NCBI RefSeq assembly: GCF_009193255.1
Contig: NZ_WACG01000006.1
Coordinates: 186,001-250,000 of the forward strand
Source: Arthrobacter koreensis
Lineage (GTDB): Bacteria > Actinomycetota > Actinomycetes > Actinomycetales > Micrococcaceae
Length of the DNA: 64,000 nt
Direction: 5' to 3'
The notes under the pieces are model-generated. The model was not told where the DNA came from. It did not search any database and worked only from the letters and a program-made list of their open reading frames with translations. Numbering within the stretch: the first letter of the stretch is position 1; every line of letters begins with the position of its first letter. Below are positions 9,874 through 26,025 of this stretch, piece by piece. The position numbers and the translations under genes are program-made.

Positions 9874-10241
9874 CCCTCGCCCCAGCACAGGCAGAACGGG
9901 TGTCCTGCCGGATCCGCGTAGACCTGGAAGCCGGTGGGCGCCGTGGTGTCCTCGGAAGCCTGCAGCAGCTCCGCCCCCAGGGACAGCGCTTCGGCATGCG
10001 CCGAGGCCAGGTCTTCCACGTGGAGGTCCAGGTGCATCTGCTGCGGCTGGCCGTCCGGCCATTGCGGCCGGACGTGGTCCGGTGCCAGCTGGATGGCGAG
10101 GACCTTTTGCCCATCTACCTGAACGCTGTGCCAGTCATCGTCCTGCTCGATGGCCGTTCCACCGAGCAGCGACGCCCAGAACGTGCTTTCAACACTGAGG
10201 TCCGGAGCATCGATGACGAGTGTCTGCCTGGTGAGTTTCAT
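9870..10241 (-). CDS. VOC-superfamily (glyoxalase/bleomycin-resistance-like) protein
   Basis: This protein of about 123 aa has a beta-alpha-beta-beta-beta fold pattern: [21 protein letters not shown] in the first half and [22 protein letters not shown] to [19 protein letters not shown] in the second. That two-module layout is typical of VOC proteins, and a metal-ligand His/Glu set is plausible. The substrate is unknown. An alternative ATG at 10253 adds four residues; neither start has a strong Shine-Dalgarno. It converges on the permease with a 4-nt overlap. Confidence 0.75.
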
Positions 10242-10290
10242 GTCCGGGATCATTCCACACGAACCGGCCGCACGGAACGGTGCGTCCGGC

Positions 10291-10315
10291 CCCCGGGGAA
10301 TAGAAATCCCCGGGG
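10291..10315. promoter_or_regulatory. Strong hairpin in the 5' region of the FrnE-like gene
   Basis: Perfect 9-bp arms (CCCCGGGGA / TCCCCGGGG) with a 7-nt loop end 3 nt before the TTG start at 10319. The structure would cover the ribosome-binding region of that mRNA, so it may limit translation. Confidence 0.55.
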
Positions 10316-10318
10316 CAG

Positions 10319-11041
10319 TTGTTGCCGACGGATGTGTTGGTAGAAATCTGGTCCGATATCGGATGCCCCTGGTGTTTCATTGGCAAGCGGCGGTTTGAGG
10401 CTGCCCTGTCCCGCTTCGAGCACGCTCCGGAGGTGGAAGTCCGCTGGCGCAGCTACCAGCTGGACCCCACGCTGCCCGAGCGTTTCGAGGGCACGGAAGT
10501 CGAGTACCTCAGCAAGGTCAAGGGCATGGACCCGGCCCAGGTTTCCGGGATGCTGGACCACGTCACCGCCCAGGCTGCCGGTGTTGGCCTGAGCTACCGG
10601 TTCGATGAGCTCAAGGTCGCAAACACTTTCACCGCGCACCGCCTCATTCACCTTGCCCATGACCGGCGCGGCGCCGAAGCTGCTGCCGGGGTGAAGGAAG
10701 CGCTCCTCGCCGCCCACTTCGAGCAGGGCCGGGACATTTCCAGCCACGATGTGCTGGCCGGGATTGGTGCAGAGGCCGGGCTGGATCCCGAAGCAGTGCG
10801 CAGCGTCCTGGCAGGGAGCGAGTACACCGATTCAGTGAACGCGGACATCGCCGAGGCCCGGGCCCTGGGCGTCAGCGGCGTCCCGTTCTTCGTGCTGGAC
10901 CGAAAGTACGGCATTTCCGGAGCGCAGCCCGAAGAGGTATTCACCCAGGCGCTCTCCCAGGCCTGGGCAGAAAGCAGGCAGCCGCTGCAGCCCATCGCCG
11001 CCGAAAGCGGAGCCTGCGCCGTCGACGGCAGCGGCTGCTAG
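10319..11041 (+). CDS. DsbA-family oxidoreductase, FrnE-like
   Basis: This 240-aa protein has a thioredoxin fold with an N-terminal CPWC active site (IWSDIGCPWCFIGKRRFE, Cys near residues 16 and 19), an alpha-helical insertion, and the cis-proline loop GVSGVPFFVLD. This matches the FrnE/2-hydroxychromene-carboxylate-isomerase-like branch of the DsbA superfamily. No signal peptide is present, so it is cytoplasmic, as FrnE of Deinococcus is. It probably acts in disulfide exchange or oxidative-stress defence. The start is TTG at 10319 or GTG at 10334 (MLVEIWSD); the second gives the more usual N-terminus. Confidence 0.83.
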   Translation: MLPTDVLVEIWSDIGCPWCFIGKRRFEAALSRFEHAPEVEVRWRSYQLDPTLPERFEGTEVEYLSKVKGMDPAQVSGMLDHVTAQAAGVGLSYRFDELKVANTFTAHRLIHLAHDRRGAEAAAGVKEALLAAHFEQGRDISSHDVLAGIGAEAGLDPEAVRSVLAGSEYTDSVNADIAEARALGVSGVPFFVLDRKYGISGAQPEEVFTQALSQAWAESRQPLQPIAAESGACAVDGSGC

Positions 11042-11057
11042 CCAGCTCCCGGCTTCC

Positions 11058-11600
11058 TCACTTACCCGGTTGGAAGCCGAACTCCAGGGAACCTCCCCAG
11101 GTTCCAGGGAGTTCGGCTGCCCGCTGCAGGATAGTCACCGTTCCGGAGTAGGCGTCCACCTCAACGAGGTCACCTGTCCGAATGACCTGTACGGGATCCT
11201 CGTCCAGCTCACTGACCGTTGGAACCCTGGTGACGACGGCGCCAAGCACGGCCTTCGTGCTCATCTTGCTGAAAACCATGGCCGCCGGGGCCGCACCAAG
11301 AAGCCGGGTGCTTTGAAAGAATCCGGACCATCCGGATGAGCCCTTGGCGCCTGGGAAGACCAGGACCCTGCCCGCGAATGACACCCCGCAGAGGGGATGG
11401 CGCCGCTCGATGATGGTGCCTGTAGCCGGGTCGATCCCGCCCCAACCGGAAATAGTGGCAGGCGAAACAAGAGCCAAGCCCCGCGTCTTCCCGGGGACGA
11501 TTCCACGTCCCCGCAGTACAACGTGGTTTCCGCTTTCCGTCGCCCCGCCGGGTGCTGCCGCAGCCGCCTGCGGTGCCGTGTCCTGATCCGGGATGCTCAC
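11058..11600 (-). CDS. Aconitase X small (swivelling-domain) subunit, AcnX-S
   Basis: This 180-aa protein carries the AcnX swivel (DUF126-like) domain: VVLRGRGIVPGKTRGLALVS near the N-terminus, ISGWGGIDPATGTI and GRVLVFPGAKGSSGWSGFF in the middle, and GDLVEVDAYSGTVTI at the end. It pairs with the catalytic subunit just upstream. The GTG start overlaps the stop of that gene by 4 nt (GTGA), so translation is coupled. A split of AcnX into two polypeptides is known as the type II form. It is the last gene of the operon. Confidence 0.87.
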   Translation of the reverse strand: MSIPDQDTAPQAAAAAPGGATESGNHVVLRGRGIVPGKTRGLALVSPATISGWGGIDPATGTIIERRHPLCGVSFAGRVLVFPGAKGSSGWSGFFQSTRLLGAAPAAMVFSKMSTKAVLGAVVTRVPTVSELDEDPVQVIRTGDLVEVDAYSGTVTILQRAAELPGTWGGSLEFGFQPGK

Positions 11601-12877
11601 TGCAGGACCCCGTTCCACTTGCCTGTCAGGGCCGCCCGGACACAGTCCTCCGTAGTTCCAAACCACGCTTCGATGCCCAGGATTGCCGGCAGGTAGTGCG
11701 CCTGTTTTGCGCTGTCCGTAGCGAAGACCCTGGTTCCTTCCGGCGCAACCCGTGACATGGCAGGACACGAATCCGTGAGCAGCCGTCCCCCGGCACGTTC
11801 AATCACCGCGGAGTATCCATTCCGGTCGGCCACGGCGCGCAGGGCGCGCGGCGTCATCACCCACAGCTCGGTGTTCGGGTTCAGTTTCCTGCCCTCAAGC
11901 AGCGAGGCAATCTGGGCTATCTGCTCAAGGGAGGCATGGGGGCAGCCGAGCAGGATGAAGTCCACGTCTTCGGAGTCGCCCTGGCTGTTCAGCGAAGCGT
12001 AGGCGGCCTGCCGGTCGGCCTCCGTATAGGCAACGGCTTCCGGGACAGTGGCATGTCCGAAGGCATCATTGACGGTGGGCGCCTCCGGTGTGACGCCGGG
12101 CAGGTGGAAGATCTCCACGCCTCCGCTGGTGGCCAGTGCCGCGCCCAGATGCTTCAAATCGTTCAACGACGGTAATCCCAGGTTCCCGGTCAGGACCGGA
12201 CGCTCTTCCTGCACCACGTCCCCGGTGAAGTATCCGAACAGGCCCCAGTCCAGGAAGGAATCGATCCTCACATCGGACCTGATGAGGTGAGTGCCCTTCC
12301 GGTTCGCGTCGAGGTGGTTTCCCCAGTACGGGATCCGCCCTGTGAGACCGGCTGCGCCGGTGGAGGTCGTCCCTTCGCAGTTGGACTTCGCGCCGATCAC
12401 CGAGTTGGCGTAGACAACCGCTGAGGACTCCATCCAGGCAATGTGTTCGCCGCGGACCGGCAGGTTGCCCACCTGGTAGGGGGTACAGGTCGCCAGGATG
12501 TTGATGCCCCGGTCACTCGCGAAGGATTCCGCGTCTGCCTGCAGTTCCACCAAATGCGGGCTGTAGGGCGTGATGTTGAGTGCGTCGGCGCTGAAGCCGT
12601 GCTGTAACTGGCAGGTGGGAACACGCATCTTCGGAATCTCGATGTCCTCATCGCAGTCCAGGTTGATGACGGCATAGGCCTTGTTCCAACCGCCCTCGGC
12701 GGCGATTTTGTTCTTGGCCGGAGTGGGCTGGGTGGATGTCCCGGCCACGTTGCGCACGCTGCACAGGCGCTCAGCACCGAGTCCTTCCCCGTAGCGGATC
12801 AGCAGGTCCATGGCGGCTGCGACGGCGGAACCGTCCCGGCCGTCACGCATCGCCTTGTCATCATCGGTCAGTTGCAA
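11597..12877 (-). CDS. Aconitase X catalytic subunit, AcnX-L
   Basis: This protein of about 426 aa belongs to the DUF521/AcnX catalytic family, Fe-S hydro-lyases related to aconitase. Characterised members are cis-3-hydroxy-L-proline dehydratases (bacteria) and mevalonate-5-phosphate dehydratases (archaea). Candidate cluster ligands are the Cys in GAKSNCEGTTS, LLGCPHASLEQ and LLTDSCPAMS. TLD-like substrate loops include VAGTSTQPTPAKN and TCTPYQVGNLP. The start is TTG at 12877, with AGGGAG 9 nt upstream; the longer frame to 13018 only shadows the upstream gene. Its first 17 nt overlap the end of the FAD oxidoreductase gene. The substrate here is unknown. Confidence 0.88.
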   Translation of the reverse strand: MQLTDDDKAMRDGRDGSAVAAAMDLLIRYGEGLGAERLCSVRNVAGTSTQPTPAKNKIAAEGGWNKAYAVINLDCDEDIEIPKMRVPTCQLQHGFSADALNITPYSPHLVELQADAESFASDRGINILATCTPYQVGNLPVRGEHIAWMESSAVVYANSVIGAKSNCEGTTSTGAAGLTGRIPYWGNHLDANRKGTHLIRSDVRIDSFLDWGLFGYFTGDVVQEERPVLTGNLGLPSLNDLKHLGAALATSGGVEIFHLPGVTPEAPTVNDAFGHATVPEAVAYTEADRQAAYASLNSQGDSEDVDFILLGCPHASLEQIAQIASLLEGRKLNPNTELWVMTPRALRAVADRNGYSAVIERAGGRLLTDSCPAMSRVAPEGTRVFATDSAKQAHYLPAILGIEAWFGTTEDCVRAALTGKWNGVLQ

Positions 12878-14204
12878 GAACCTGCTCCCTTCCGGGTTGT
12901 CCGCCTGCTGTTTCGTCCTCGCCGATGTTGACCCGAATGCGTTCACGCAGGTCGGCCAGGTTGATCTCGGAAACCGGTCCGCCGTCGGCAAGGTCGAGGG
13001 CATGGGCAGCCGCCTCACCCATTGCCGCGCAGGGGCCCATCACCCGCACACTGGACAGGGCCGCAGCATCGCCGTCAACGCAGCGTCCTGCGGCGAGCAG
13101 GTTCACCGCACCGCGCGGAGTGATACTGCCCAAGGGCACATAGTGGACGTGCTCGGAATCAAAGACGTCCCACACGTATCCCTCCGGCCGGTCATGCAGC
13201 TCGATCGGCCAGGCGGTACGCGCCACCGCATCCTCGAAACGGAAGCCGGTCTTCACCTCATCAGTGGTGAGCTGGTGCTCTCCTGCAATCCACCTGGTCT
13301 GCCGGCGCCCCGGGAAGCCATAAAGGCGGACTGTGGCCCGTCCGAACGCGTCGGGGAACTCGGCCCGCAGGAAGTCGACCACCCTGTCCGCCTGTTCCTT
13401 GCCGCGCAGCTGGGCAGCGGAAGCTTCGATCACCTGCAGCGGAGCTTCCACGTGGGTCATGTTCATGACGGCGGTATCCCGCCCCGGGAAGAAGAAGGCA
13501 AGTCCGTCGCGCCGGAGCAATCCGTACTCGTCTGCCTTCTCGGCTACCCGGTTGGTCAGTTCGTCAGCCGGAGGAGCGTGCACAGGATCCAGGTTTTCCA
13601 GCCGGACCTGCTGGGACCCCCAGATGGTCCGTTCAGGTACCCGGCATTCCAAACCTGCTTCCCAGGTCAGCGCCGCGTCACCGCTCGCATCTATGAAAGA
13701 GTCCGCACTGACCCGGATCAGCCCGTATCTGGTGGCGAAAACGACGGCGCGCAGGTGACCGCCGTCGTTCTCCACGTCCAGGATGGATGCCCCGGTCACC
13801 GGAATGACCCCGGCCCGGTCGATCTGGGTTTCCATCCAGCGTCCGACGGCGTTCTCGTCATAGTTCACGGTGATGGTGTGCCGGTAGTTGTAGGAAATGT
13901 CGCCGGTCCGTGCCAGGTCTTCGAACATTGGATCGAAGATGCCGTGGGTGAGCTGCCGGTATTCGGGTCCGTTGCCGAAAACCCCGCAAAACAGCCCGAT
14001 CAGCGAATTGGCGCACTGGCCGCCGAGAACGGGCAGGGCGTCAACGATCACTACCCTTCGTCCCAGCCTGGCCGCCGTCAGCGCGGCGGAGATGCCGGCA
14101 ATACCGGCACCGACGACGCACAGGTCCGCGGACAGTTCTTCGGCCGGCGCGTGCGGCGGTTTTGTGAGAGTGCGAATCTTTACTTCAGTCAGTGGGTGAG
14201 GCAT
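12861..14204 (-). CDS. FAD-dependent oxidoreductase (FAD_oxidored type)
   Basis: This 447-aa protein has an N-terminal dinucleotide-binding motif VVGAGIAGISAALTAARLG (about residues 30-48), an acidic end to the second strand (VVIVDALPVLGG), and a C-terminal FAD loop LLAAGRCVDGDAAALSS. The segment SFIDASGDAALTWEAG is typical of the PF12831-type flavoproteins. It would oxidise an alcohol or amine, or act on a C=C bond; the acceptor is unknown. AAGGA lies 6 nt before the ATG at 14204. It is 29 nt after the IlvD/Edd gene and overlaps AcnX-L by 17 nt, so it belongs to the same catabolic operon. Confidence 0.85.
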   Translation of the reverse strand: MPHPLTEVKIRTLTKPPHAPAEELSADLCVVGAGIAGISAALTAARLGRRVVIVDALPVLGGQCANSLIGLFCGVFGNGPEYRQLTHGIFDPMFEDLARTGDISYNYRHTITVNYDENAVGRWMETQIDRAGVIPVTGASILDVENDGGHLRAVVFATRYGLIRVSADSFIDASGDAALTWEAGLECRVPERTIWGSQQVRLENLDPVHAPPADELTNRVAEKADEYGLLRRDGLAFFFPGRDTAVMNMTHVEAPLQVIEASAAQLRGKEQADRVVDFLRAEFPDAFGRATVRLYGFPGRRQTRWIAGEHQLTTDEVKTGFRFEDAVARTAWPIELHDRPEGYVWDVFDSEHVHYVPLGSITPRGAVNLLAAGRCVDGDAAALSSVRVMGPCAAMGEAAAHALDLADGGPVSEINLADLRERIRVNIGEDETAGGQPGREQVLATDR

Positions 14205-14233
14205 GAAAATCCTTATCATCTGTGGAAGCCGCA

Positions 14234-15907
14234 CTAGCGGCTTAGGGTGGCCCCGTGTTCCAGCGGCGAGACGTTGCGGGCATAGAGCCCGAGCCAACCC
14301 CTCGTCTGCCCGCCGGAGCGGGGAGCCGCGGATTCCGTCCGGCGATGGTCGAGTTCGCCGGCGGGAACGTCGAGGTCCACTGTCCTGGCCGGGATATCGA
14401 TGGCGACCCGGTCGCCGTCGCGCACAAGCCGCAGCGGGCCGTCCACCCCGCCTTCAGGTTTGACCTCCCCGACGACGATTCCCTGGTTCACGAGGCCGGA
14501 CAGCTGGCCGTCAGTGAGCACGGCGACCTTGCCGGTCAGTCCCGCGCCATTGAGCGCGAAGACCACGTTGGAGGCCATGCCCATCCCCGGGGTGCCCACC
14601 GGACCGACCCCGCGCAGCACCAGGACCTCCCCGGGCAGGACTGCGCCCGTCTCGATCGCGGAGATGGCTGCTGCGGCTTCTTCGAAGACCCGCGCCGGTC
14701 CGGCGAACCGGTCATCGCGTTTTTCGGTAGCCGAGAGCTTGACGATTGACCCTTCGGGTGCCAGGGATCCGCGCAGGATCTGAATAGTCGCCTGCACTCC
14801 GCGCGGGTTGTCCAGCGGCCTGATCAGCTCCGGGTCGGGGACCTCGAAGCCCTCCAGGGCCTGGTTCAGCGATTCACCGGTGATGGTGGTGGCATGCAGG
14901 TCCAGCACTGGCTTCAGCTGCGTGAGCACGGCACGGGCACCGCCGGCACCTTCAAAGTCCTCGATGCTGTCCGGCCCGCTCGGACGGACCGCTGCCAGCG
15001 GCCGGACGTGTTCGGCCAGTTCGGTGAAGAGACCATTGATGTCCACGTCCACCCCGGTTTCAACCGCGATCGCCTGGAGGTGCTTGACGCTGTTGATGGA
15101 ACCGCTGACGGCGAGTACGGCGGCGGCCGCGTTGCGGAAAGCACCCGCCGTCATGATCGAGCGGGGCGTGCGCCCATGCCGGACAGCGTCCAGGATCGCT
15201 GTGGCAGAGCGTGCCGCGTTGTCCCACATCTTGGGGCTGTTGGCCGCAACCGGCGCAGCACCGGGCAGGGTCATGCCCAGGGCCTCCGCGACGATGTGCA
15301 TGGTGTTGGCGGTACCCATGCCCGTGCACACGCCCGGTCCCTTGATCGCGCGGTCGCTGATCGAGCACAGATCCTCGACGGTGATCCCGCCGGTGGCCAC
15401 GTGCCCGGCTTGAATAAAGACTTCCTCGATGTCTGCCGGCTCGCCGCTGTCGAGTACGCCGCAGGGCTGGTAACCGCAGGGGATAACGATGGTGGGCACA
15501 TTGATCCGGCCTGCTGCCATGAGCTGCCCCGGCGTGGTCTTGTCGCACGAGGCCAGGCAGATCATGCCGTCCAGCATGGCGCCCTCAACGGCCGCTTCGA
15601 CGTCGTTGGCCAGCAGGTCCCGGCTGGAGAGCACGTAACCGCCTTTACCCCCGGCCGCCATGATGAAGTCGGTGGGCGCGACCGTCCGGATCTCGAACGC
15701 CACGCCGCCTGCTTCTCGAACCGCCTCGCAGACCCGGTCCGCAATGTCATCCAGGTGGCTGAAGCAGGGGGCTAGTTTCGACGACGAGTTGACGACGGCG
15801 ATCTTGGGTTTGGTCAGGTCCTCATCGGTGAGGCCAAGCACCTTCCACTGGGTGCGCCGGGTGGCCCACCGTGGACTTCCGACCGGAAAGTTGCTGCGCA
15901 GTTCCAT
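14234..15907 (-). CDS. IlvD/Edd-family Fe-S dehydratase
   Basis: This 557-aa protein has all three Fe-S cysteines of the family in place: Cys48 in LAPCFSHL, Cys121 in ASCDKTTPG and Cys194 in GVCTGMGTANTM. The Mg-binding and catalytic regions follow (TDGQLSGLVNQG near the C-terminus). The family includes dihydroxyacid dehydratase, 6-phosphogluconate dehydratase and several sugar-acid dehydratases. The operon context with uptake genes argues for a catabolic polyhydroxy acid and not valine/isoleucine synthesis. Its ATG directly follows the TAA stop of the permease gene (no gap), so translation is coupled. Confidence 0.88.
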   Translation of the reverse strand: MELRSNFPVGSPRWATRRTQWKVLGLTDEDLTKPKIAVVNSSSKLAPCFSHLDDIADRVCEAVREAGGVAFEIRTVAPTDFIMAAGGKGGYVLSSRDLLANDVEAAVEGAMLDGMICLASCDKTTPGQLMAAGRINVPTIVIPCGYQPCGVLDSGEPADIEEVFIQAGHVATGGITVEDLCSISDRAIKGPGVCTGMGTANTMHIVAEALGMTLPGAAPVAANSPKMWDNAARSATAILDAVRHGRTPRSIMTAGAFRNAAAAVLAVSGSINSVKHLQAIAVETGVDVDINGLFTELAEHVRPLAAVRPSGPDSIEDFEGAGGARAVLTQLKPVLDLHATTITGESLNQALEGFEVPDPELIRPLDNPRGVQATIQILRGSLAPEGSIVKLSATEKRDDRFAGPARVFEEAAAAISAIETGAVLPGEVLVLRGVGPVGTPGMGMASNVVFALNGAGLTGKVAVLTDGQLSGLVNQGIVVGEVKPEGGVDGPLRLVRDGDRVAIDIPARTVDLDVPAGELDHRRTESAAPRSGGQTRGWLGLYARNVSPLEHGATLSR

Positions 15908-16702
15908 TTAGCCCTCCGCCTTCCGCCCGTAAACCGACTCGTGCCAGGGGATCGCCAGGCGTTTGAAGGATGTGACGATGAAGTACATGGCCAGGCCGAC
16001 GGAAGCAAGCATCAGGATGACGGCGAAGAGTGCAGGTGCGTTGAGTTCGTTCAAAGTCCTGACAACCATGTAGCCCAGGCCTTCGTTGCCGCCGAGATAT
16101 TCGCCAACAATTGTTCCGATCACTGCCAGGACAATCGCCGTTTCCATTCCCGCGAACACGTGGGGCATCATGCTTTTGATTTCCAGGTGGGTGAAGGTCT
16201 GCCAGCGGTTGGCGTTGATGGACTGCATGACGTCACGGTGGCCGCGGTCTACGGAGCGGACGCCGAGCAGGACGTTCAGCATCACGGGGAAGAAGGCCAG
16301 GAGCGCGGCAATGATGACCTTGGTGGTCATGCCGAATCCGAACCAGATGACGAAGAGCGGAATCAGCGCAACCTTGGGAATGACCTCCAGTGCAATGATC
16401 AGGGGACGCACGCTGGCTTCCAGCAGTGGAAGCTTGCCGAGCAGGACGCCGACGATAATGCCGGCGGCAACGCCGACCGAGAACCCGATCACAATCTCGA
16501 TGACGGTGATCCGGACGTGCTGCCAGGTACTGGCCTGCACCAGGAGGTCGCCGAGGTTTTCGAAGACCTGGCTGGGCGGCGGGAGCACGAGCGGCGAGAC
16601 GTCCAAGGCCTTGACTGACAGCTCCCAGACCACGAAGAGGACCACCAGCAGCCCGGGTGTCGTGATCCAGGGCAGTACCTTGATGAGTTTGCGGCGGTTC
16701 AC
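15908..16702 (-). CDS. ABC transporter permease, SsuC/TauC family
   Basis: This 264-aa inner-membrane protein has about six helices (first at residues 12-31) and the EAA loop for the ATPase in the region MLNVLLGVRSVDRGHRDVMQSINANRW. It belongs to the binding-protein-dependent permeases for sulfonates, nitrate, taurine, aromatic acids and pyrimidine precursors. The GTG start overlaps the ATPase stop by 4 nt. A single permease gene suggests a homodimeric channel. With the ATPase and binding protein it imports the operon's unknown substrate. Confidence 0.88.
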   Translation of the reverse strand: MNRRKLIKVLPWITTPGLLVVLFVVWELSVKALDVSPLVLPPPSQVFENLGDLLVQASTWQHVRITVIEIVIGFSVGVAAGIIVGVLLGKLPLLEASVRPLIIALEVIPKVALIPLFVIWFGFGMTTKVIIAALLAFFPVMLNVLLGVRSVDRGHRDVMQSINANRWQTFTHLEIKSMMPHVFAGMETAIVLAVIGTIVGEYLGGNEGLGYMVVRTLNELNAPALFAVILMLASVGLAMYFIVTSFKRLAIPWHESVYGRKAEG

Positions 16703-17544
16703 TGTTCGTCCTCCTGGTTCAGGGAAGCGCGAAGCTCCGCCACTACGGTGTTGAACTCCTTGCCGGTCTGGACTTCCACTGCGCGCGGCCGGGCCAGCGG
16801 CACGTCTGCGATGTCCTTGATCCGGCCTGGCCGAGGGGTGAGGTGGACGACGCGGTCGCCGAGGAACACGGCCTCCTCGATGTCATGCGTTACGAAGACC
16901 ACCGTTGCCTGGGTGGCCAGGGCGATCCGCTGGATCTCGAGGTTCATCTTTTCCCGGGTCAGCGCATCGAGGGCACCGAATGGCTCGTCCATGAGCAGCA
17001 GCTCGGGGTTGTCGCTGAGGGCGCGGGCGATCGCGGCACGCTGCCGCATACCGCCGGACAGCTCACGCGGATAACTGCGCAGGAATTTGTCCAGCCCCAC
17101 CAGTTCAGCCAGTTCCCCGGCCCTTTCCAGCCGTTCCCGCTTCTTGACCCCCCGCAGTTTCAGCGGAAGGGCAATGTTTTCCTCGATGCTGTACCAGGGA
17201 AACAGGTTGGCATCCTGGAAAACGACGCCGAGGCGCTTGATCACGCTGGAATCGACCGTTCCGTTGTGCCAGAGGCTCTTGTCCCCTATCTCAACCTGTC
17301 CTGCCGTCGGCGCCACCAGTCCCGCCATGATCCGCAGCAGGGTGGTCTTGCCGCAGCCTGAGCGTCCGATCAGTGACACGAACTCCCTGCGGCGGATTTC
17401 AAGGTTGATATTGGACAGGGCTTCCACTGAGCCGCGTTCGGTCTTGTATGTCTTATGGAGACCTTCAATGCGGATCTCCACCGGCCGGCCGTCGCCCTCC
17501 GCTGCGGGGAGCGAGGCCAGGGTGCTGTCAACGTGCATGGTCAT
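16699..17544 (-). CDS. ABC transporter ATP-binding protein, SsuB/TauB family
   Basis: This 281-aa protein has Walker A GRSGCGKTT (about residue 60), Q-loop VVFQDANLFPW, signature LSGGMRQR, Walker B LLLMDEP with D-loop ALDALTRE, and H-loop VFVTHDIEEA. The Q-loop DANLFPW and switch region VHLTPRPGRI are typical of the nitrate/sulfonate/taurine importer ATPases. It lies 15 nt after the binding-protein gene and 4 nt overlapped with the permease. Confidence 0.92.
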   Translation of the reverse strand: MTMHVDSTLASLPAAEGDGRPVEIRIEGLHKTYKTERGSVEALSNINLEIRRREFVSLIGRSGCGKTTLLRIMAGLVAPTAGQVEIGDKSLWHNGTVDSSVIKRLGVVFQDANLFPWYSIEENIALPLKLRGVKKRERLERAGELAELVGLDKFLRSYPRELSGGMRQRAAIARALSDNPELLLMDEPFGALDALTREKMNLEIQRIALATQATVVFVTHDIEEAVFLGDRVVHLTPRPGRIKDIADVPLARPRAVEVQTGKEFNTVVAELRASLNQEDEQ

Positions 17545-17559
17545 TCCTCAATCCCGGCG

Positions 17560-18633
17560 TTACTTGCTGGCCGGGAGGTAGCTGTTGTCCATCCACTGCT
17601 TCGGGTCGCTGCCGGCTGGGATCATCCCCGCGTCGACAAGCTCTTCATAGCCCTCGACCCAGTACTCCTCCACCGTTTGCAGGAGCGGCTGGGTACCCTT
17701 GGCTGTCCAGAGGCTGCGGCTCTGGCGGAGCGATTCCTTGGCAACCGTGTCGTCGTCGAGCGAGGCGAAGGAGTACTTGGATCGCATCGTTTCCAGCACG
17801 CCGTCGAGCTCTTCGTCGTCCACGATCGCCTGCGTGGCGTCGTGTATGGCTGCCAGGTACTTCCGGATATCGTCCCCGTGCTCTTCGAGGCCTTCCTTGG
17901 TGGCCGTATAGACCTGGGCATCTGCACGGACGGAGTCCCCGGCGTCGAACACCGCGGCCTCACCCTCAAACTGCTGGCTGGCCACAATCGACTGGTCAAT
18001 GCTGACCATGTAGCCGACGATGTCTCCGCGCTTGACCAGTTCGAATGTTCCCGGACCGAGGCCAACCACCTGCCTCTTGACCTCACTGGGATCGAAGCCG
18101 GCCTTATGCAGCATCAGTGACAGTGACTTGTCACTGGTGCCGCCTTCCGAGGGGACACCCATGGTGGTGCCGAGAAAATCCTCCGGCTTCTCCAACGGGT
18201 GGTCTTTGCTGTACAGGGTTCGGATGGAGGAACCGCGAACGATGCTGCCCACGTTGACCAGCGGCTGTCCGTCAGCAGCTGCGGTCATGAGGTCGATTGC
18301 TCCGACGCGCGTCAGGGGAGCAACTCCGGAGATCAACGTCTGAAGGGCCTGGGGAGACCCTTTGGTCGTTTGGAATGTCACTTTGAGACCCTGCTCAGCG
18401 AAATACCCTCCCGCATCCGCAAGCAGTTCGGGCGCTACGGAAAGCGTCTCCATGGGGAGGTAGCTCAGGTATGTGAAGTCCTTTAGTCCGCCGGTGGCGG
18501 CGGGTGCCGTTGAGCTGCCGCAGCTGACGATCGTGCTGCTGAAGGCCCCGAGCGTGGCCACGCCCAGCGCGCCTGTCAGGAAGCCCCGGCGGTTGATGGG
18601 CGGACGTTGGGTCTGTGCATTCGTGGGGAACAT
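17560..18633 (-). CDS. Substrate-binding lipoprotein, NMT1/SsuA-like, Tat-targeted
   Basis: This 357-aa protein has an N-terminus INRRGFLTGALGVATLGAF with the twin-arginine motif and ends in a lipobox-like STIVSCGSS. It is therefore probably folded in the cytoplasm, exported by Tat and lipid-anchored. The mature part begins LKDFTYLSYLPMETLSVAPE, then GGYFAEQGLKVTFQTTKGSP and AIDLMTAAADGQPLVNVG, the usual NMT1/THI5-like layout. AGAGGAG lies 6 nt before the ATG. This family binds planar or anionic compounds; the ligand is not predictable. It is the first gene of the catabolic operon after the regulator. Confidence 0.87.
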   Translation of the reverse strand: MFPTNAQTQRPPINRRGFLTGALGVATLGAFSSTIVSCGSSTAPAATGGLKDFTYLSYLPMETLSVAPELLADAGGYFAEQGLKVTFQTTKGSPQALQTLISGVAPLTRVGAIDLMTAAADGQPLVNVGSIVRGSSIRTLYSKDHPLEKPEDFLGTTMGVPSEGGTSDKSLSLMLHKAGFDPSEVKRQVVGLGPGTFELVKRGDIVGYMVSIDQSIVASQQFEGEAAVFDAGDSVRADAQVYTATKEGLEEHGDDIRKYLAAIHDATQAIVDDEELDGVLETMRSKYSFASLDDDTVAKESLRQSRSLWTAKGTQPLLQTVEEYWVEGYEELVDAGMIPAGSDPKQWMDNSYLPASK

Positions 18634-18751
18634 CGTTGTCTCCTCTTTCGGTGGAAAACCGTTGGAGACACTCTCTCAACCCCTGGCAGACGCCCCTAGT
18701 CACTTCCCGCTGAATGAGATCTGCGTCACTATTCGTTCGTTCATGACGAAC
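18634..18751 (-). promoter_or_regulatory. Candidate operator sites between iclR and the binding-protein gene
   Basis: Two inverted repeats lie here. One is perfect (GTTCGT-n5-ACGAAC, 18735-18751) and overlaps the iclR stop. The other is an imperfect GTTG...CAAC-type repeat around 18661-18680, about 30 bp before the binding-protein start. Either could be an IclR-family site; no clear -35/-10 pair was found. Confidence 0.35.
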
Positions 18752-19565
18752 TGACGGACTGCTGCCAGGACCGGGTGATGCCGAGCGCCGCTGTCTGGAC
18801 CGCGTGCGCCGCGGACTGCTCATGCAGCCGCCCCAGCGGGGTGTTCACGGAGATGGCGGCCACAACGGTACCGGTCCAGTCACGGATGGGCGCCGCGACT
18901 GAGATGGCATCCAGGACGACCTGCCGGTCACTGACCGCAAATCCCTGGGTGCGGATCCCGGCGAGTCTTTTCCTGAGCCTGACCGGGTCCGTCTCAGTCA
19001 ACGGCGTATACGTCCGCAGCGAGCCGCTGAGGAAACCGTCCTGGACGGCAGCCGGCGCGTTGGCAAGCAGAACAAGCCCAACGGACGTGACGTGGAGCGG
19101 GTACCGGCTTCCTACCCGAGGCCGGTCAAACGGAGAATCTGCCGGCGCGAGCCTTTCGATGAATACACTCTCCGACCCTTCCCGGACTGCAAGATGGACG
19201 GGGTATTGGGTGATCGTTGACAGGTCACGCATGAAGGGCAGGGCCAAACGCTGCACGCCGACTGACCGCGGCGCGTACGACGCCATTTCCCACAGGACGA
19301 GCCCAACGTGGTAGCGCCCCTCCGGGCTCTTTTCCAGCAAACGCTGCTCCACCAGTGCAGAGAGTATTCGATGGCACGTCGACATGGGGAGCCCTGCCAG
19401 GCGGCTGATTTCACTCGCACTGAGGGCTTCGTTTCCTTCTCCAAAAGATCGCAGAATCCCCACCACACGGGAAAGGACGCTGCGTCCGTCGTCGCTTCGC
19501 AACAGACCTCCCGGGCTCGGCAGGACACTCAACCCCCACTCTAGACGCGGGTCATGCAGAGCCAC
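18741..19565 (-). CDS. IclR-family transcriptional regulator
   Basis: This 274-aa protein has a winged HTH (SVLSRVVGILRSFGEGNEALSAS context, recognition helix in LPMSTCHRILSALVEQ) at about residues 28-95. The C-terminal IclR effector domain includes YPVHLAVREGSESVFIERL, YPLHVTSVGLVLLA and VAAISVNTPLGRL. IclR proteins sense small organic acids and act as repressors or activators of catabolic operons. It lies directly upstream of, and co-directional with, the transporter-dehydratase operon and is its likely regulator. Confidence 0.9.
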   Translation of the reverse strand: MALHDPRLEWGLSVLPSPGGLLRSDDGRSVLSRVVGILRSFGEGNEALSASEISRLAGLPMSTCHRILSALVEQRLLEKSPEGRYHVGLVLWEMASYAPRSVGVQRLALPFMRDLSTITQYPVHLAVREGSESVFIERLAPADSPFDRPRVGSRYPLHVTSVGLVLLANAPAAVQDGFLSGSLRTYTPLTETDPVRLRKRLAGIRTQGFAVSDRQVVLDAISVAAPIRDWTGTVVAAISVNTPLGRLHEQSAAHAVQTAALGITRSWQQSVSSS

Positions 19566-19630
19566 CGGTTTTTGACACGCAGGCAGTCACATAGATTCGG
19601 GCTCAGCCACGAACCGATTACCTCAGCCGG

Positions 19631-20314
19631 CTAGCTCCCGGCTTCCGCGCCTTCGGACGGCTGGCCGCTCTTCCACGGGCAGCTGATCGGCCCGGGTGCG
19701 GCGGCCTCGGCTTTCTCCACCGGAACCAGGTTGTTGTAGCCCGAGCCGATGACAACGTCCACGGACGCATCGTCCCGGTCGTCCTGGATGTACTGGGTAT
19801 CCGGGATCTGCTGCTGCAGCGTGAATGCACCCGGCTCGCCGTCGGGCCCGGACAGGATGATGGCCGTCATTCCTTCACGGTTCACCGTACTGTTGCCCAC
19901 CACTCCGATGGAGAATCCGCGGTTCTTGAGGGCCTCCGCCACTTCGCCTGCCAGGCCGGGGGTGGCGGTTGTGTTGTAGACGTTTACCGTCACCGTCTCC
20001 GGCGACTGGTACAGGTACGGTCCCGCCGGGCACCCGGTTTCCACTGCCGGACGGGCATCCGACCGGGGAAGGTTGATCCACCCGGCGCTGATGCCCTGGG
20101 CAACCACAGCCGCAAGGACCAGCAGCCCAATCAGCGCGCCCAGCACCACGCCATGGAATTTGCGCTTGCGCCTGGCCCGGAGTTCGGCCGCCGGATCGCC
20201 GTCTTCATCGAAGACGGCTCCCAGGTCCTGCTCCGTCACAATCCGGTGGCCGTGCCACTCGGTGGGGTCGCTCCCGGCGTCCCTGCGCTGCCCTCGAGGG
20301 GGCTCGTTAGTCAT
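19631..20314 (-). CDS. LytR C-terminal-domain protein, membrane-anchored
   Basis: This 227-aa protein has a cytoplasmic N-terminus with a positively charged patch (RARRKRKFHG) and one transmembrane helix (GVVLGALIGLLVLAAVVAQG, about residues 55-75). An extracellular LytR_C domain follows, starting ETVTVNVYNTTATPGLAGEV and containing VVGNSTVNREGMTAIILSG and DVVIGSGYNNLVPV. The domain occurs at the end of LytR-CpsA-Psr cell-wall ligases and alone in many actinobacteria; its function is unknown. The start overlaps the preceding small gene by 8 nt, a pairing conserved across actinobacteria. Confidence 0.85.
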   Translation of the reverse strand: MTNEPPRGQRRDAGSDPTEWHGHRIVTEQDLGAVFDEDGDPAAELRARRKRKFHGVVLGALIGLLVLAAVVAQGISAGWINLPRSDARPAVETGCPAGPYLYQSPETVTVNVYNTTATPGLAGEVAEALKNRGFSIGVVGNSTVNREGMTAIILSGPDGEPGAFTLQQQIPDTQYIQDDRDDASVDVVIGSGYNNLVPVEKAEAAAPGPISCPWKSGQPSEGAEAGS

Positions 20315-20606
20315 CGATGACCAGCACGCGGGCGTGCAGTATGGTCCGCTGGTGCAAAGCTGTCCTGACCGCTCGGTGCAGTCCGTCTTCCAGGTACATG
20401 GTGCCCCTCCATTGCACTACGTGCGGGAAAAGGTCTCCAAAGAAGGTCGAGTCCTCGGCCAGCAGAGCGCCGAGGTCCAGGGTGGCCTTTGTGGTCACCA
20501 GTTCGTCCAGCCGGACCTGCCGGGGAGGTACCGCTGCCCAGTCCTTGGGTGTTACGTATCCGTGGTCGGGGTAGGGGCGCACATCGCCAACAGCTTTGAA
20601 GATCAC
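20307..20606 (-). CDS. Conserved actinobacterial small protein (often auto-named VapB-type antitoxin)
   Basis: This 99-aa protein has no membrane segment. The motif YLEDGLHRAVRTALHQRTILHARVLV resembles the DGhHR stretch of ParB/sulfiredoxin-like folds, and VRLDELVTTKATLDL precedes it. Automated pipelines often call this family a VapB antitoxin, but no PIN-domain toxin is nearby and I do not support that label. The start is GTG, with a -10-like TAGTCT 6 nt upstream, so the mRNA could be leaderless. It overlaps the LytR_C gene by 8 nt, which suggests a joint function. Confidence 0.72.
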   Translation of the reverse strand: MIFKAVGDVRPYPDHGYVTPKDWAAVPPRQVRLDELVTTKATLDLGALLAEDSTFFGDLFPHVVQWRGTMYLEDGLHRAVRTALHQRTILHARVLVIDD

Positions 20607-20722
20607 TCAACCAGACTAGAGAAGTTCCGCATCCAAGGAAACAGGACTCCCCGGCAGCAGCCGCATAGTTACGCCGATCGGGGCCGGATATGGTCTCCGC
20701 GCTGGTCCGGGGATACTTAAGC

Positions 20723-21616
20723 ATGACTTCTGCGCGTTTTGGCCTGCTGCTCGACGTCGACGGACCGGTGGCGTCCCCGCTGACCCGGACCGTCTCTCCC
20801 GCGGTGATCGGCCACCTGGTTGCCCTTGCCGCGGCGGGCTGGCCGGTGGTGTTCAACACCGGCCGTTCGGACGAATTCATCCGCACCCAGGTCATGGAAC
20901 CCATGATTGCCGCCGGGCTGCCTGCGGACGTGACCCTGCATGCGGTCTGCGAGAAGGGCGGCGTCTGGTTTTCCTTTTCCGGGTCCGGTGCCGGCGAGGT
21001 GAGCGTGGACGGGGAACTGGCCCTGCCGGCGTCGTACGCCTCCGCGATCCGGGACCTGGTGGCGGAGAAGTACACCGGGCACATGTTCTTCGATGAGACC
21101 AAGCGCTCCATGGTCTCCGTGGAGCAGAACGTGGACGTGGCCAATGCGGACTACCTGGCCGAGCAGAAGGAGTTCGACGCCGATGCGCTGGAGCTGATGT
21201 CCCGGTTCGACATGGGCGTGTGCCGCCTTGACCACCACGCACCCGGCTCCGACGATTCGGTCGACTACCGGATCGACCCCACCATCATCTCCACTGATAT
21301 CGAAGCCCTCGGCGCCGGCAAGGACCTCGGCGCCCGGCGCGCACTGACACTTCTCCAGGACGCCGGGACTCCCGTCCCGCGGACCTGGCGGACGGTGGGT
21401 GATTCCCGGACCGACTACGCGATGGCCGATGAGCTCCATGCCCTGGGCTACGACGTCGCGCATGTGGATGTCCGCCCGGCCGACGGCGTGCCGGCCAAGC
21501 CGTATCCGGTGCTCACCGCCGGAGAACTCATCCACGACGACGCCGGAGAGGCGTTCCTGTGCCGGTGGACGCAGATGGCCGCCGGGGAGGCCGTGGACGA
21601 CTCGGCCGTGGTGTAG
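20723..21616 (+). CDS. HAD-superfamily hydrolase
   Basis: This 297-aa protein has motif I LLLDVDGPV (the two Asp nucleophile/acid residues), motif II in VVFNTGRSDEF, motif III Lys in GAGKDLGARRAL and motif IV VGDSRTDYAMADEL. The NTGR version of motif II and the cap between motifs II and III resemble type IIB phosphatases (sucrose- or trehalose-phosphate phosphatase-like). A sugar-phosphate substrate is likely but not specified. The ATG at 20723 is preferred over earlier starts because the family begins a few residues before motif I. It is divergent from the small conserved gene at 20606. Confidence 0.8.
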   Translation: MTSARFGLLLDVDGPVASPLTRTVSPAVIGHLVALAAAGWPVVFNTGRSDEFIRTQVMEPMIAAGLPADVTLHAVCEKGGVWFSFSGSGAGEVSVDGELALPASYASAIRDLVAEKYTGHMFFDETKRSMVSVEQNVDVANADYLAEQKEFDADALELMSRFDMGVCRLDHHAPGSDDSVDYRIDPTIISTDIEALGAGKDLGARRALTLLQDAGTPVPRTWRTVGDSRTDYAMADELHALGYDVAHVDVRPADGVPAKPYPVLTAGELIHDDAGEAFLCRWTQMAAGEAVDDSAVV

Positions 21617-23249: not shown

Positions 23250-24470
23250 CTAAAGCCAGCTGCCCCGGCGCATCACCCGGACAGGCACCAGGGCCTCGTC
23301 CAGCACCAGGAGATCAGCGAAGGCTCCGGGAAGCAGTGAGCCCAGCTCCTGCCCGCGGCCCAGCACTCCGGCCGGCACGGCCGATGCGGAGGTCACGGCA
23401 TCAGCCAGGGAAACCCCGGCCCCCACGGCATTCCGGACAAGGTCCGCCATGGCCGCGGTGCCGCCGGCAATCGATCCGGTGGTCATCAGGCGGGCGATCC
23501 CGCCCTGGACGAGGACTTCGGCAGGCCCCAGCCGGTACTGGCCGTCAGCCAGACCCGCCGCAGCCATCGAATCGGTGACTAGGGCAATGTTTCCGGCTCC
23601 GAGCAGATCGAACATGGTTGCCACCATGTAGGCGTCCAGGTGCGCGTTATCGGCAATGAGCTCGACGGCGGCATGGCCCGCCTCCGCGGCGCGCAGGCAG
23701 GCCGAAGCAGCTCCCGGCGCACGGTGGTGGATCGGATCCATGCCGTTGAACAGATGGGTGACGGTGGGCCGGCCACCGGATGGCCCGGCTGCCGCCATCA
23801 GTTGCCTCGCCCTGCCCAAAGATTCGTGCGCCTGTTCCGCTGTGCACGCGGTATGCCCCAGGGAGGGGGTCACCCCGTTCCCGGCCAGCAGCTCCACCAG
23901 CGCGGCAGCTCCCGGAAGCTCCGGTGCATAGGTCATGGTGCGCAGCCAGCCGCGTCCGGCGTCGATGAGCTCCTGCGCGAGTTCCAGGTCCGGCGCCAGC
24001 AGCCAGCGCGGGTCCTGGGCCCCGCAGCGGACTTCGGAGAGGAACGGACCTTCCAGGTGGATGCCCGCTATGTGGCCGTCCTCGGCCAGCCCGGCCAGCA
24101 CCGACATCTGCCGCAGCAGGACTTCCGGTTCGTCGGTGACCAGGCTCGCCATGACGGTGGTGCTCCCGGCACGATGCAGTCCGGCTACAGCCTCGCGGAT
24201 CGAGGAGGCATCAGCACGGGAAAAGTCGACGCCGTAGGCTCCGTGGCAGTGCAGGTCCACCAGTCCCGGAACCATCACCTCTCCGGCGGCGAGGTCAACG
24301 ACGCCGTCATCAGGTGTGGGTGTCAGGCCGCTGAACGGACCGGCGTATGTGACCACGCCGCCGTCGACCACCACTGCCGCGTCAGGCAGCAGCGTCTCGA
24401 GGACGGCGGCACCGCGCAGGACGAGGCGCGGACGTCCGGTGGAGGACGGGGCAGGACTCGTGTCCGTCAT
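23250..24470 (-). CDS. nagA: N-acetylglucosamine-6-phosphate deacetylase
   Basis: This 406-aa amidohydrolase-fold enzyme hydrolyses GlcNAc-6-P to GlcN-6-P and acetate. Visible are DLHCHGAYGVDF (metal-site HxH and substrate loop), the metal Glu in GIHLEGPFLSE, the His in PSLGHTACT, HLFNGMDPIHHR, and the catalytic Asp in LVTDSMAAAG. It is the last gene of nanR-nagB-nagA, 15 nt after nagB. In this locus it processes the GlcNAc-6-P produced from sialic acid by NanA, NanK and NanE. Confidence 0.94.
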   Translation of the reverse strand: MTDTSPAPSSTGRPRLVLRGAAVLETLLPDAAVVVDGGVVTYAGPFSGLTPTPDDGVVDLAAGEVMVPGLVDLHCHGAYGVDFSRADASSIREAVAGLHRAGSTTVMASLVTDEPEVLLRQMSVLAGLAEDGHIAGIHLEGPFLSEVRCGAQDPRWLLAPDLELAQELIDAGRGWLRTMTYAPELPGAAALVELLAGNGVTPSLGHTACTAEQAHESLGRARQLMAAAGPSGGRPTVTHLFNGMDPIHHRAPGAASACLRAAEAGHAAVELIADNAHLDAYMVATMFDLLGAGNIALVTDSMAAAGLADGQYRLGPAEVLVQGGIARLMTTGSIAGGTAAMADLVRNAVGAGVSLADAVTSASAVPAGVLGRGQELGSLLPGAFADLLVLDEALVPVRVMRRGSWL

Positions 24471-24485
24471 GGGGATGGCCTTTTG

Positions 24486-25229
24486 CTAGAGGAGGGACGC
24501 GGCTGCGGGGTCGGCCAGGACAGTGACCCGGCCATGCAGCTGCAGGACGGACGCGGGGCACTCCGGGCTCACGGGTCCCCGCAGTGCTGCGCGCAGGGCC
24601 TCGGCCTTGTCTTGGCCCCGGGCGATAAGCAGCAGCTGCCCCGCGTCAAGGATGGTGCCCAGTCCCTGCGTCAGGCAGCGGGTCGGCACGCTGTCCAGGG
24701 AGTCGAAGAACCGCTGGTTGGCACGGCGGGTGTCCTCGGTAAGAATCTCGACCCGGGTGCGCGAGTCCAGTGCCCCGCCGGGTTCATTGAACGCGAGGTG
24801 TCCGTTGCGGCCAATGCCCAGGATCTGCAGGTCGATTCCCCCGGCTGCCGCAATGCTGCGCTCGTACTCGTCACAGGCCTTCTGGAGGTCCTTCCGGTGC
24901 GGATCCGGAAGATGCACGGCCTGCGGGTCCAGCCTGAGCGGTTCGATGATCTCGCGGCGCAGTACCTCGGCATAGCTCTGCGGATGGCCGACGGGCAGGC
25001 CCACGTACTCATCCAGGGCAAACCAGGCGGCACGGCTAAAGTCTGCGCCGCTGGCGGACAGCGCGGCGTAGAGCGGAGAGGGCGATGAGCCGGTGGCTAC
25101 GCCAATGACCGGATCCCGGCGCGCGGCCAGCGCATCCAGCACCAGTCCTGCGGCGGCCGGGCCGATTTCCCCGGGCTGCAGTTCCCGTACCAGCGGAGCG
25201 GCGGAACGGTTCATGGTGCCGGCCCTCAT
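24486..25229 (-). CDS. nagB: Glucosamine-6-phosphate deaminase
   Basis: This 247-aa enzyme converts GlcN-6-P to fructose-6-phosphate and ammonia. It has GVATGSSPSPLYAAL (phosphate loop), FALDEYVGLPVGHPQSY (catalytic Asp region), LGIGRNGHLAFNEPGG (active-site His and substrate contacts) and TQGLGTILDA. Its length fits the short, non-allosteric type. Its ATG overlaps the nanR stop by 4 nt (ATGA), so it is translationally coupled to the regulator gene. Confidence 0.95.
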   Translation of the reverse strand: MRAGTMNRSAAPLVRELQPGEIGPAAAGLVLDALAARRDPVIGVATGSSPSPLYAALSASGADFSRAAWFALDEYVGLPVGHPQSYAEVLRREIIEPLRLDPQAVHLPDPHRKDLQKACDEYERSIAAAGGIDLQILGIGRNGHLAFNEPGGALDSRTRVEILTEDTRRANQRFFDSLDSVPTRCLTQGLGTILDAGQLLLIARGQDKAEALRAALRGPVSPECPASVLQLHGRVTVLADPAAASLL

Positions 25230-25960
25230 GCCTCACGCAGCTTTGCCAGCTGTGCCCGGATGCCGTCAAAGTGCCGGCGGAGACGCTCGGAAGCCAGTTC
25301 CTTGTCCCCCGACTTGACCGCTTCCAGGATGCCGCGGTGCACTGCGGCATTCTCCTCCAGGTTGACCAGCGGATCTCCGCCCAGCTCCAGGTGGATCTTG
25401 CGGTAGACCTGCCAGAAGACAGACATCAGGTTGGAGAGCAGTTCGTTGCCCAGGGGTTCGAAGAGCTGGTAGTGGAAACGCTCATCCACCTCGGTGAACG
25501 TGTTTCCGCCGGCTGCCGCGGTTTCCATTTCCCGGACGGTGGCTTCGATTTCCGCCAGGTGCTCAGGGGTCCAGAGATCCATGGCTTCGCCGATGAGGCC
25601 CGCTTCCAGGGCCTGCCGCACGTCCACGAGCTGGAGTGCTTCCTTGCCCTCATGCCGCAGGGACAGCCGCCCCCGGAAGGTCAGGCCGTCCGCCAGTGCG
25701 TCAAAGTTGGCCGGTGCAACGAACATTCCAAATCCGTGCCGGATCTCCACAACACCCAGTGCCTGCAGCACCTTGAGTGCTTCGCGGAGGGTGTTGCGTC
25801 CGATCCCCAGGGCTGCGGCCAGCTCGGCCTCCGTGGGGAGCGCGTCTCCGGCCTTCAGGTCACGCTCGAGGATGAGCTCCATGATTTCAGCCTGCAGGGC
25901 CCGGGATCGGTTCTGGGCACTGAACCGCGCCGGCGGCAGTGAAGCATGGGGCAGGCTCAT
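25226..25960 (-). CDS. nanR: FadR-subfamily GntR regulator of the sialic-acid regulon
   Basis: This 244-aa protein has a winged HTH at residues 25-85 (MELILERDLKAGDALPTEAE, LGIGRNTLREALKVLQALG, VEIRHGFGMFV) and a C-terminal all-helical FCD effector domain with metal/ligand residues in DVRQALEAGLIGEA and DERFHYQLFEPLGN. GAGGAGGAC just before the ATG at 25960 fixes the start. It is divergent from siaE. In C. glutamicum a GntR-type NanR represses the equivalent genes. The inverted-repeat sites in the intergenic region (26026-26142) and over the sialidase promoter are its likely operators, and it is probably autoregulated. Confidence 0.9.
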   Translation of the reverse strand: MSLPHASLPPARFSAQNRSRALQAEIMELILERDLKAGDALPTEAELAAALGIGRNTLREALKVLQALGVVEIRHGFGMFVAPANFDALADGLTFRGRLSLRHEGKEALQLVDVRQALEAGLIGEAMDLWTPEHLAEIEATVREMETAAAGGNTFTEVDERFHYQLFEPLGNELLSNLMSVFWQVYRKIHLELGGDPLVNLEENAAVHRGILEAVKSGDKELASERLRRHFDGIRAQLAKLREA

Positions 25961-26025
25961 TAGTCCTCCTCGGACGGCGAATGGACGGGCTATGGGATAC
26001 AACTTAGCCGATAGCACCACAGGTT

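Follow-up and report, generated by a model that had tools for sequence, protein, structure and literature searches.

Aconitase X (AcnX) has two reported activities, the dehydration of cis-3-hydroxyproline and that of mevalonate 5-phosphate (accessible parts of PMC5144071 and PMC8184944). The accessible text of PMC5144071 assigns the catabolic bacterial AcnX to the cis-3-hydroxy-L-proline route and places the bacterial two-subunit form in type IIa, apart from the archaeal type IIb; an assay of a type IIa enzyme was not met in the accessible parts of either paper. Here we analyse a locus of Arthrobacter koreensis that encodes a two-subunit AcnX. It lies in a 64,000-nucleotide stretch of contig NZ_WACG01000006.1 (assembly GCF_009193255.1, positions 186,001 to 250,000; hereafter the window, to which all coordinates refer), where an IclR-family regulator precedes genes for a three-component importer, an IlvD/Edd dehydratase (IlvD), an oxidoreductase dependent on flavin adenine dinucleotide (FAD; the flavoprotein) and the large and small AcnX subunits (AcnX-L and AcnX-S). 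We interpret these genes as a self-contained operon that was acquired horizontally and serves the catabolism of one imported small carboxylic acid, with a probability of roughly 0.6.

The association of flavoprotein, AcnX and IlvD is a real conserved unit. A neighbourhood search had been suggested as a check in the initial annotation of the window, and its outcome agrees with that annotation. Genome contigs were scanned with the flavoprotein alone, which gave 53 loci (L028-L080; the plasmid loci L022-L027 were left out), and these hold AcnX-L in 50, AcnX-S in 49 and IlvD in 36. Presence was counted by tblastn, because the gene caller missed or split genes, and adjacency was counted from called genes; the tblastn presence thresholds, and likewise the boundary that separates close from distant AcnX in the class search below, were set after the scores had been seen. 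Of the 48 loci with both AcnX subunits called, 47 have them side by side; IlvD sits immediately next to the flavoprotein in 34 of the 36 in which those two were called, and the flavoprotein shares its strand with AcnX-L in 46 of 48 loci, being directly adjacent in 33 of the 48. The identical order IlvD-FAD-AcnX-L-AcnX-S is found on a Paroceanicella plasmid, with TRAP (tripartite ATP-independent periplasmic) transporter genes near by. With AcnX-L as the anchor, 15 of 394 genomes of the class match at E 1e-40 or better, eight of them (the A. koreensis genome included) at 53-100% identity. In seven of these eight, the AcnX cluster includes a flavoprotein homologue, close in three (A. koreensis, G208 and G365) and at 26-29% identity in four; the eighth, G207, has none in its cluster, on a contig of only 7.2 kb. 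IlvD is present in six of the eight clusters (not in G263 and G207). The two samples overlap (G365 is probably locus L031, its contig having the same length). A class-wide flavoprotein search (1e-60 cut-off, best 4 candidates per genome) misses distant flavoproteins, and absence was therefore judged from the fetched regions. The co-occurrence counts from the two anchors thus define a core of flavoprotein and AcnX, with IlvD as a frequent third enzyme.

The block arrived by horizontal transfer, as an insert. It occupies 11052..19637, between dsbA and a lytR_C-type gene; DNA similarity to the same-genus loci L103 and L104 ends at 11051 and resumes at 19638, and similarity to L106 ends at 11062 and resumes at 19668. 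A 17-nt direct repeat (16/17 identical) has its left copy at 11041..11057 and its right copy at 19630..19646, where it covers the end of the lytR_C-type gene. A search with DsbA gave the loci of 11 relatives; the lytR_C-type gene follows dsbA in six (L103, L104, L106, L107, L108 and L109) and was not within the stretch in five. Three genomes of the same genus (G005, G023 and G017; loci L103, L104 and L106) have the empty site, with dsbA and the lytR_C-type gene end to end. DsbA is 92% identical to that of G005 and 61% to that of G035, a genome of another genus. The flavoprotein is 94% identical to that of G035, and 8.4 kb of the block are 84.3% identical in DNA to the copy there (L093); the best flavoprotein match in 28 other same-genus genomes reaches 1.8e-36 and 30% identity (G013). 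No transposase or integrase is found among the eight genes of the block, and the window contains no tRNA that could account for the insertion. The insertion as one block supports a self-contained catabolic unit, and since regulator, importer and enzymes were transferred together, the host would supply the rest. The tail of AcnX-S contains an inverted repeat of 23 nt (11072-11121), with 4 nt between arms that are 87% complementary; it sits where similarity to the block of the other genus ends (11122), and the insertion may have left this tail as a scar.

Residue roles for AcnX were taken from the accessible part of PMC8184944 and mapped by pairwise alignment to 7CNR and 7D2R, with an inferred offset of 10 between the Agrobacterium chain and the numbering of the paper. 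The family alignments comprise the window proteins with 34 of 51 AcnX-L, 32 of 51 AcnX-S and 26 of 40 IlvD sequences called. The catalytic Ser, Glu, Lys and Tyr and the Cys ligands are retained: Cys131, Cys312, Cys371, Glu150, Ser151, Lys391 and Tyr395 of AcnX-L are invariant in 35 aligned sequences, as are Ser88 (the base Ser), Ser89, Gly90 and Trp53 of AcnX-S in 33, and the three-Cys pattern of AcnX-L is that of type II. Two residues of the hydroxyproline enzyme that contact the ring nitrogen are replaced, Asp203 by Ala45 of AcnX-L (at least 90% conserved) and Thr72 by the invariant Gly90 of AcnX-S; Trp35, which packs on the ring in that enzyme, is retained as Trp53. The phosphate contacts Asn53 and Asn79 of the Thermococcus enzyme TkAcnX fall outside the pairwise alignment, and the Agrobacterium counterpart of Asn79 aligns with a His. 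The closest solved structure to this AcnX is the Thermococcus enzyme 7CNR (204.3 bits). AcnX-S scores 61.3 bits with the swivel domain of the hydroxyproline enzyme, behind 2HI6 and 7CNR at 74. Against the equivalog NF051439, AcnX-L and AcnX-S reach 235.4 and 71.4 of 700 bits, which is a weak test alone, the model being the 555-long fused form. Judged from these alignments, the window AcnX is complete and its predicted pocket differs from the hydroxyproline one; with the catalytic residues kept and the ring-nitrogen contacts lost, a third AcnX specificity is likely.

The packing described in the initial annotation, seven reverse-strand genes with 4- or 17-nt overlaps or gaps of at most 29 nt and an IclR gene upstream, was right in the positions of the open reading frames and in their spacing. 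We chose gene starts by ribosome site and overlap with the neighbour. All eight genes lie on the reverse strand. The IclR-family regulator (18741..19565; IclR_C 111.4 bits, over the Pfam curated cut-off) is separated by 107 nt from the NMT1/SsuA-like substrate-binding protein of an ATP-binding cassette (ABC) importer (17560..18633; NMT1 93.2 bits). The importer ATPase (16699..17544; ABC_tran 121.3 bits) follows after 15 nt, and the permease (15908..16702; BPD_transp_1 100.6 bits) after a 4-nt overlap. IlvD (14234..15907; ILVD_EDD_N 304.5 and ILV_EDD_C 175.0 bits) abuts the permease (0 nt) and is followed after 29 nt by the flavoprotein of family PF12831 (12861..14204; FAD_oxidored 242.9 bits), these scores all being over the Pfam cut-offs. 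The flavoprotein gene overlaps by 17 nt with AcnX-L (11597..12877; PF04412 AcnX 369.5 bits, cut-off 31.5), which in turn overlaps by 4 nt with AcnX-S (11058..11600; PF01989 AcnX_swivel_put 87.2 bits, cut-off 27). The flavoprotein start is an ATG at 14204, chosen for the AAGGA preceding it; the TTG at 12877 gives AcnX-L 426 residues, the commonest length among 51 relatives, and AcnX-S starts with the GTG at 11600. The best NCBIfam model for the regulator is PcaR/PcaU/PobR (121.2 bits, below the cut-off of 284.75), and the binding protein scores 55.3 of 163.5 bits, under the cut-off, against the aliphatic sulfonate importer model (SsuA, TIGR01728). The promoter scan found none, the terminator scan found four, no more than in shuffles, and an Rfam scan of 10000-21000 gave no match. 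It had also been stated that aldolase, kinase and CoA-ligase are absent; indeed, the inserted block has no enzyme beyond those named above, semialdehyde dehydrogenases included. Outside the insert, at 23250-26020, amidohydrolase, glucosamine-6-phosphate isomerase-like and GntR/FCD genes stand in a row and have the look of amino-sugar use.

The related loci vary in what surrounds the core. Among the 53, tblastn found an NMT1 binding protein in 25, an aromatic acid/H+ symporter-like carrier of the major facilitator superfamily (MFS) in 15, a metabolite/H+ symporter-like MFS carrier in four, TRAP in three and TAXI-TRAP in two. At least one of these five kinds is present in 47 loci; of the six with none, L064 has a branched-chain-type ABC system. 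For the representative of the 15-locus MFS carrier, the nearest model is TIGR00895, aromatic acid/H+ symporters, at 329.1 of 418.55 bits. Regulators found with our queries are of IclR type in 20 loci and LysR type in 23, with both in five and neither in 15. AibH1H2-like genes of PF04909 (the ARO kind) occur with a small Rieske protein in 11 loci (AibH1H2-like oxygenase with Rieske ferredoxin: L052, L053, L060, L062, L065-L068, L071, L075 and L077), all with the flavoprotein and all but L060 with AcnX. The pair is incomplete in L062, cut by the contig end, and in L053, where the second member is only a partial match; L080, a 7.6-kb contig, has one PF04909-type gene and no Rieske match. The pair of Actinomycetospora straminea (L066) has chains B and A of 6M1W as its best solved relatives, and we take chain B as AibH2 because the ligand numbers in the accessible text of PMC10401708 fit it. 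In L066, four stretches (DxH, His, Glu and DYPH) align with chain B, the full ligand set being seen for L066 alone; over 12 AibH2-like rows, His209 and Asp334 pass a 95% filter, which the DxH and the last His fail. A TauD-type oxygenase is present in two of the 53 loci and in the plasmid locus L024; alcohol dehydrogenase (ADH) and aldehyde dehydrogenase (ALDH) genes follow AcnX-S in L042, and an ALDH gene does so in L040. With such extra genes, some lineages may introduce the hydroxyl group themselves. Replacement of IlvD by the oxygenase was considered and rejected: IlvD was not seen in 9 of 11 ARO loci versus 8 of 42 others (Fisher p 2e-4), and the association is lost on the flavoprotein tree, where four supported independent pairs give on average 0.6 the same way, 0.0 the other way and 3.4 with no difference (sign test p 1). 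Two loci carry mycofactocin genes beside the AcnX-flavoprotein-IlvD module, mftC, mftD and mftF in L086 (245-5214) and mftF, with three more genes matching L086, in L088 (10105-14995). L042 encodes ADHs dependent on N,N-dimethyl-4-nitrosoaniline (NDMA), a family linked to mycofactocin. We left mycofactocin out of the proposed pathway; the A. koreensis genome has no maturase over the cut-off (46.4 of 265 bits).

Cys48, Cys121 and Cys194 of IlvD are invariant in 27 aligned sequences. The protein is 36% identical to the other IlvD of the genome, which scores 449 bits with PF00920 versus 306.5 for the window enzyme. Among the matches listed it stays below the cut-off of every IlvD/Edd NCBIfam model, including the biosynthetic dihydroxy-acid dehydratase equivalog TIGR00110 (461.9 of 618.15 bits) and the L-arabinonate dehydratase model (324.8 of 882 bits). 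In a search of plasmids with IlvD, identity falls from 48.5% (H8) to at most 38.3% for the next of the 20 matches listed.

In the pathway that we propose, the NMT1-type ABC system would import the acid, and the IclR protein would sense it or one of its products. The flavoprotein may oxidize the acid, either C-OH to C=O or a C-C bond of ring or chain to C=C. AcnX-L and AcnX-S, with their type-II three-Cys Fe-S site, would take the proton next to the carboxylate and expel the beta-hydroxyl; IlvD could act in a comparable manner on a form with alpha- and beta-hydroxyls, giving a 2-oxo acid, as a branch or step not needed by every lineage. The product would be something that the host already handles. 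Two dehydrations of one acid are plausible, whereas double dehydration as a fixed feature, as first put forward, does not fit the 17 of 53 loci without IlvD in the stretch covered. Our first guess at the substrate, itself doubtful, would be a hydroxylated acid of cyclic or aromatic-acid-like shape, and not an amine, because the ring-packing Trp is kept, the ring-nitrogen contacts are gone and aromatic-acid-type MFS carriers stand beside the core in other lineages.

Several observations weigh against a self-contained catabolic operon for one acid. The enzymes do not form an obligate set: AcnX-L was not seen in three of the 53 loci (L060, L063, which is a 5-kb contig, and L072) and IlvD was not seen in the 17 just mentioned, although some of these stretches stop at contig ends and IlvD may lie beyond. 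L060 and L063 of the 17 also show no AcnX and L080 has a broken flavoprotein frame, which leaves 14 loci with flavoprotein and AcnX and without IlvD. In G115, the 18 kb fetched contain a 53% identical flavoprotein and no AcnX or IlvD. On a Variovorax paradoxus plasmid (L095, 5781-14723), a 43% identical flavoprotein lies in a meta-cleavage-looking cluster that also has a hydroxyphenylpropionate-type hydroxylase, a VOC protein, hydrolases of FAH and alpha/beta type and an ABC importer; AcnX and IlvD are absent from the 21 kb covered. The diversity of carriers weakens substrate inference from any single one, and carrier and regulator names all stand below curated cut-offs. The argument from the Trp is based on pairwise alignments. 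Finally, the accessible text of PMC8184944 extends mevalonate 5-phosphate dehydratase activity, by assumption from archaeal members, to every active type-II AcnX.

If the window AcnX instead served biosynthesis, as a mevalonate 5-phosphate dehydratase or otherwise, its two-subunit type-II form, its matching three-Cys pattern and the Thermococcus enzyme as its closest solved structure would be as expected. However, core isoprenoid synthesis would not be expected to come with an importer, to be patchily distributed or to be transferred horizontally, and the solved and assayed type-II enzymes in the accessible literature are of the archaeal IIb group, from which the bacterial two-subunit form is listed apart. 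We give this explanation little credence; the mevalonate 5-phosphate activity is unlikely, as judged by context and not by residues. Catabolism of cis-3-hydroxy-L-proline with a reductase encoded elsewhere would agree with the assigned bacterial activity (accessible text of PMC5144071) and with the alignment of AcnX-S to the swivel domain of that enzyme. Yet the contacts to the ring nitrogen are lost at Ala45 and Gly90, and the score of AcnX-L with NF051439 is far below its threshold. Neither PF02423 nor PF02615, which we take to be the relevant reductase families, has a match in the A. koreensis genome (3.55 Mb, 15 contigs, completeness 100), while among 14 control genomes the same searches were positive in 8 and 4, respectively; the epimerase family PF05544 appears only below its cut-off (26.1 of 27 bits). 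In a control Paracoccus cluster, a 4-hydroxyproline epimerase and a reductase of the Ldh family accompany the fused AcnX, and among L022-L100 and the window these two proteins match only their own locus at E 1e-8. The absence of hydroxyproline partners claimed in the initial annotation thus extends to the genome for both reductase families, and this route is scarcely credible for the window.

Closer to what was initially proposed is a sugar-acid route, in which IlvD would convert an aldonic or aldaric acid to a 2-oxo-3-deoxy acid, followed by flavoprotein oxidation and AcnX dehydration at the other carboxylate. L-arabinonate, xylonate and galactonate dehydratases are among the solved or modelled relatives of IlvD, and IlvD at 50-52% identity follows a distant flavoprotein (27-30%) on Cupriavidus, Polaromonas and Indioceanicola plasmids; in Polaromonas, dehydrogenases and two enzymes of the mandelate racemase type lie close to it. 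Against this, the named dehydratase models are far below their cut-offs, the inserted block has no aldolase, kinase or semialdehyde dehydrogenase, and flavoprotein and AcnX occur without IlvD in 14 of 53 loci, some of which stop at contig ends. As a second guess at the substrate this is unlikely. One transcript might also carry two modules, one in which flavoprotein and AcnX form a route and one in which IlvD handles a different imported acid in a step unrelated to theirs. IlvD was not seen in 17 loci, and the three plasmid loci just named (L023, L025 and L027) have IlvD directly after the distant flavoprotein and no AcnX in the approximately 19.7 kb covered. An unrelated step is nevertheless hard to reconcile with the 34 of 36 loci that have IlvD immediately beside the flavoprotein and with the movement of all genes here as one block, and we regard it as improbable. 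A single catabolic operon for one imported acid remains our preferred reading.

In the searches made of open-access literature, no report of the flavoprotein-AcnX-IlvD combination turned up, and a description elsewhere is possible. As far as these searches go, neither this set of genes nor what this AcnX catalyses seems to have been described before. The undescribed pathway suspected at the outset therefore stands as far as the combination is concerned, whereas each enzyme family is known. We suggest tentatively, at slightly less than even odds, that bacterial two-subunit AcnX of this clade represent a third activity in an undescribed pathway, which would be found in Actinobacteria and Proteobacteria, be movable as one block and have alternative front ends, either IlvD or an AibH1H2-type dinuclear metal or TauD-type oxygenase that would put a hydroxyl on an unactivated carbon. 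Because the operon is compact, mobile and equipped with importer and regulator, its substrate is directly findable via the binding protein, the inducer and the enzymes. The substrate question also bears on AibH2-like oxygenases; according to the accessible text of PMC10811679, the natural substrates of four characterized members could not be inferred by the authors. The words aconitase and dehydratase are absent from the accessible main text of PMC7782822.

Compared with known systems, the locus combines familiar parts in a distinct way. The window IlvD shares both Pfam domains, the three Cys and the DGxxSG region with dihydroxy-acid dehydratase IlvD and L-arabinonate dehydratase. Genes like those of the AibH1H2-AibG monooxygenase (aib cluster of Rhodococcus wratislaviensis) are found in 11 related loci and none in the window. 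With the fused hydroxyproline AcnX of Agrobacterium (7CNQ, 7D2R) the window enzyme shares the superfamily, the catalytic Ser, Glu, Lys and Tyr and the ring-packing Trp; it differs in being split into two subunits, in its type-II Cys pattern and in having Ala and Gly in place of Asp203 and Thr72. Thermococcus TkAcnX (7CNR), a mevalonate 5-phosphate dehydratase, likewise has two subunits, the three Cys places and Ala at the Asp203 position, whereas the window enzyme has Trp for Leu27 and Gly for Val64 and belongs to a block without mevalonate genes, in a bacterial setting with an importer.

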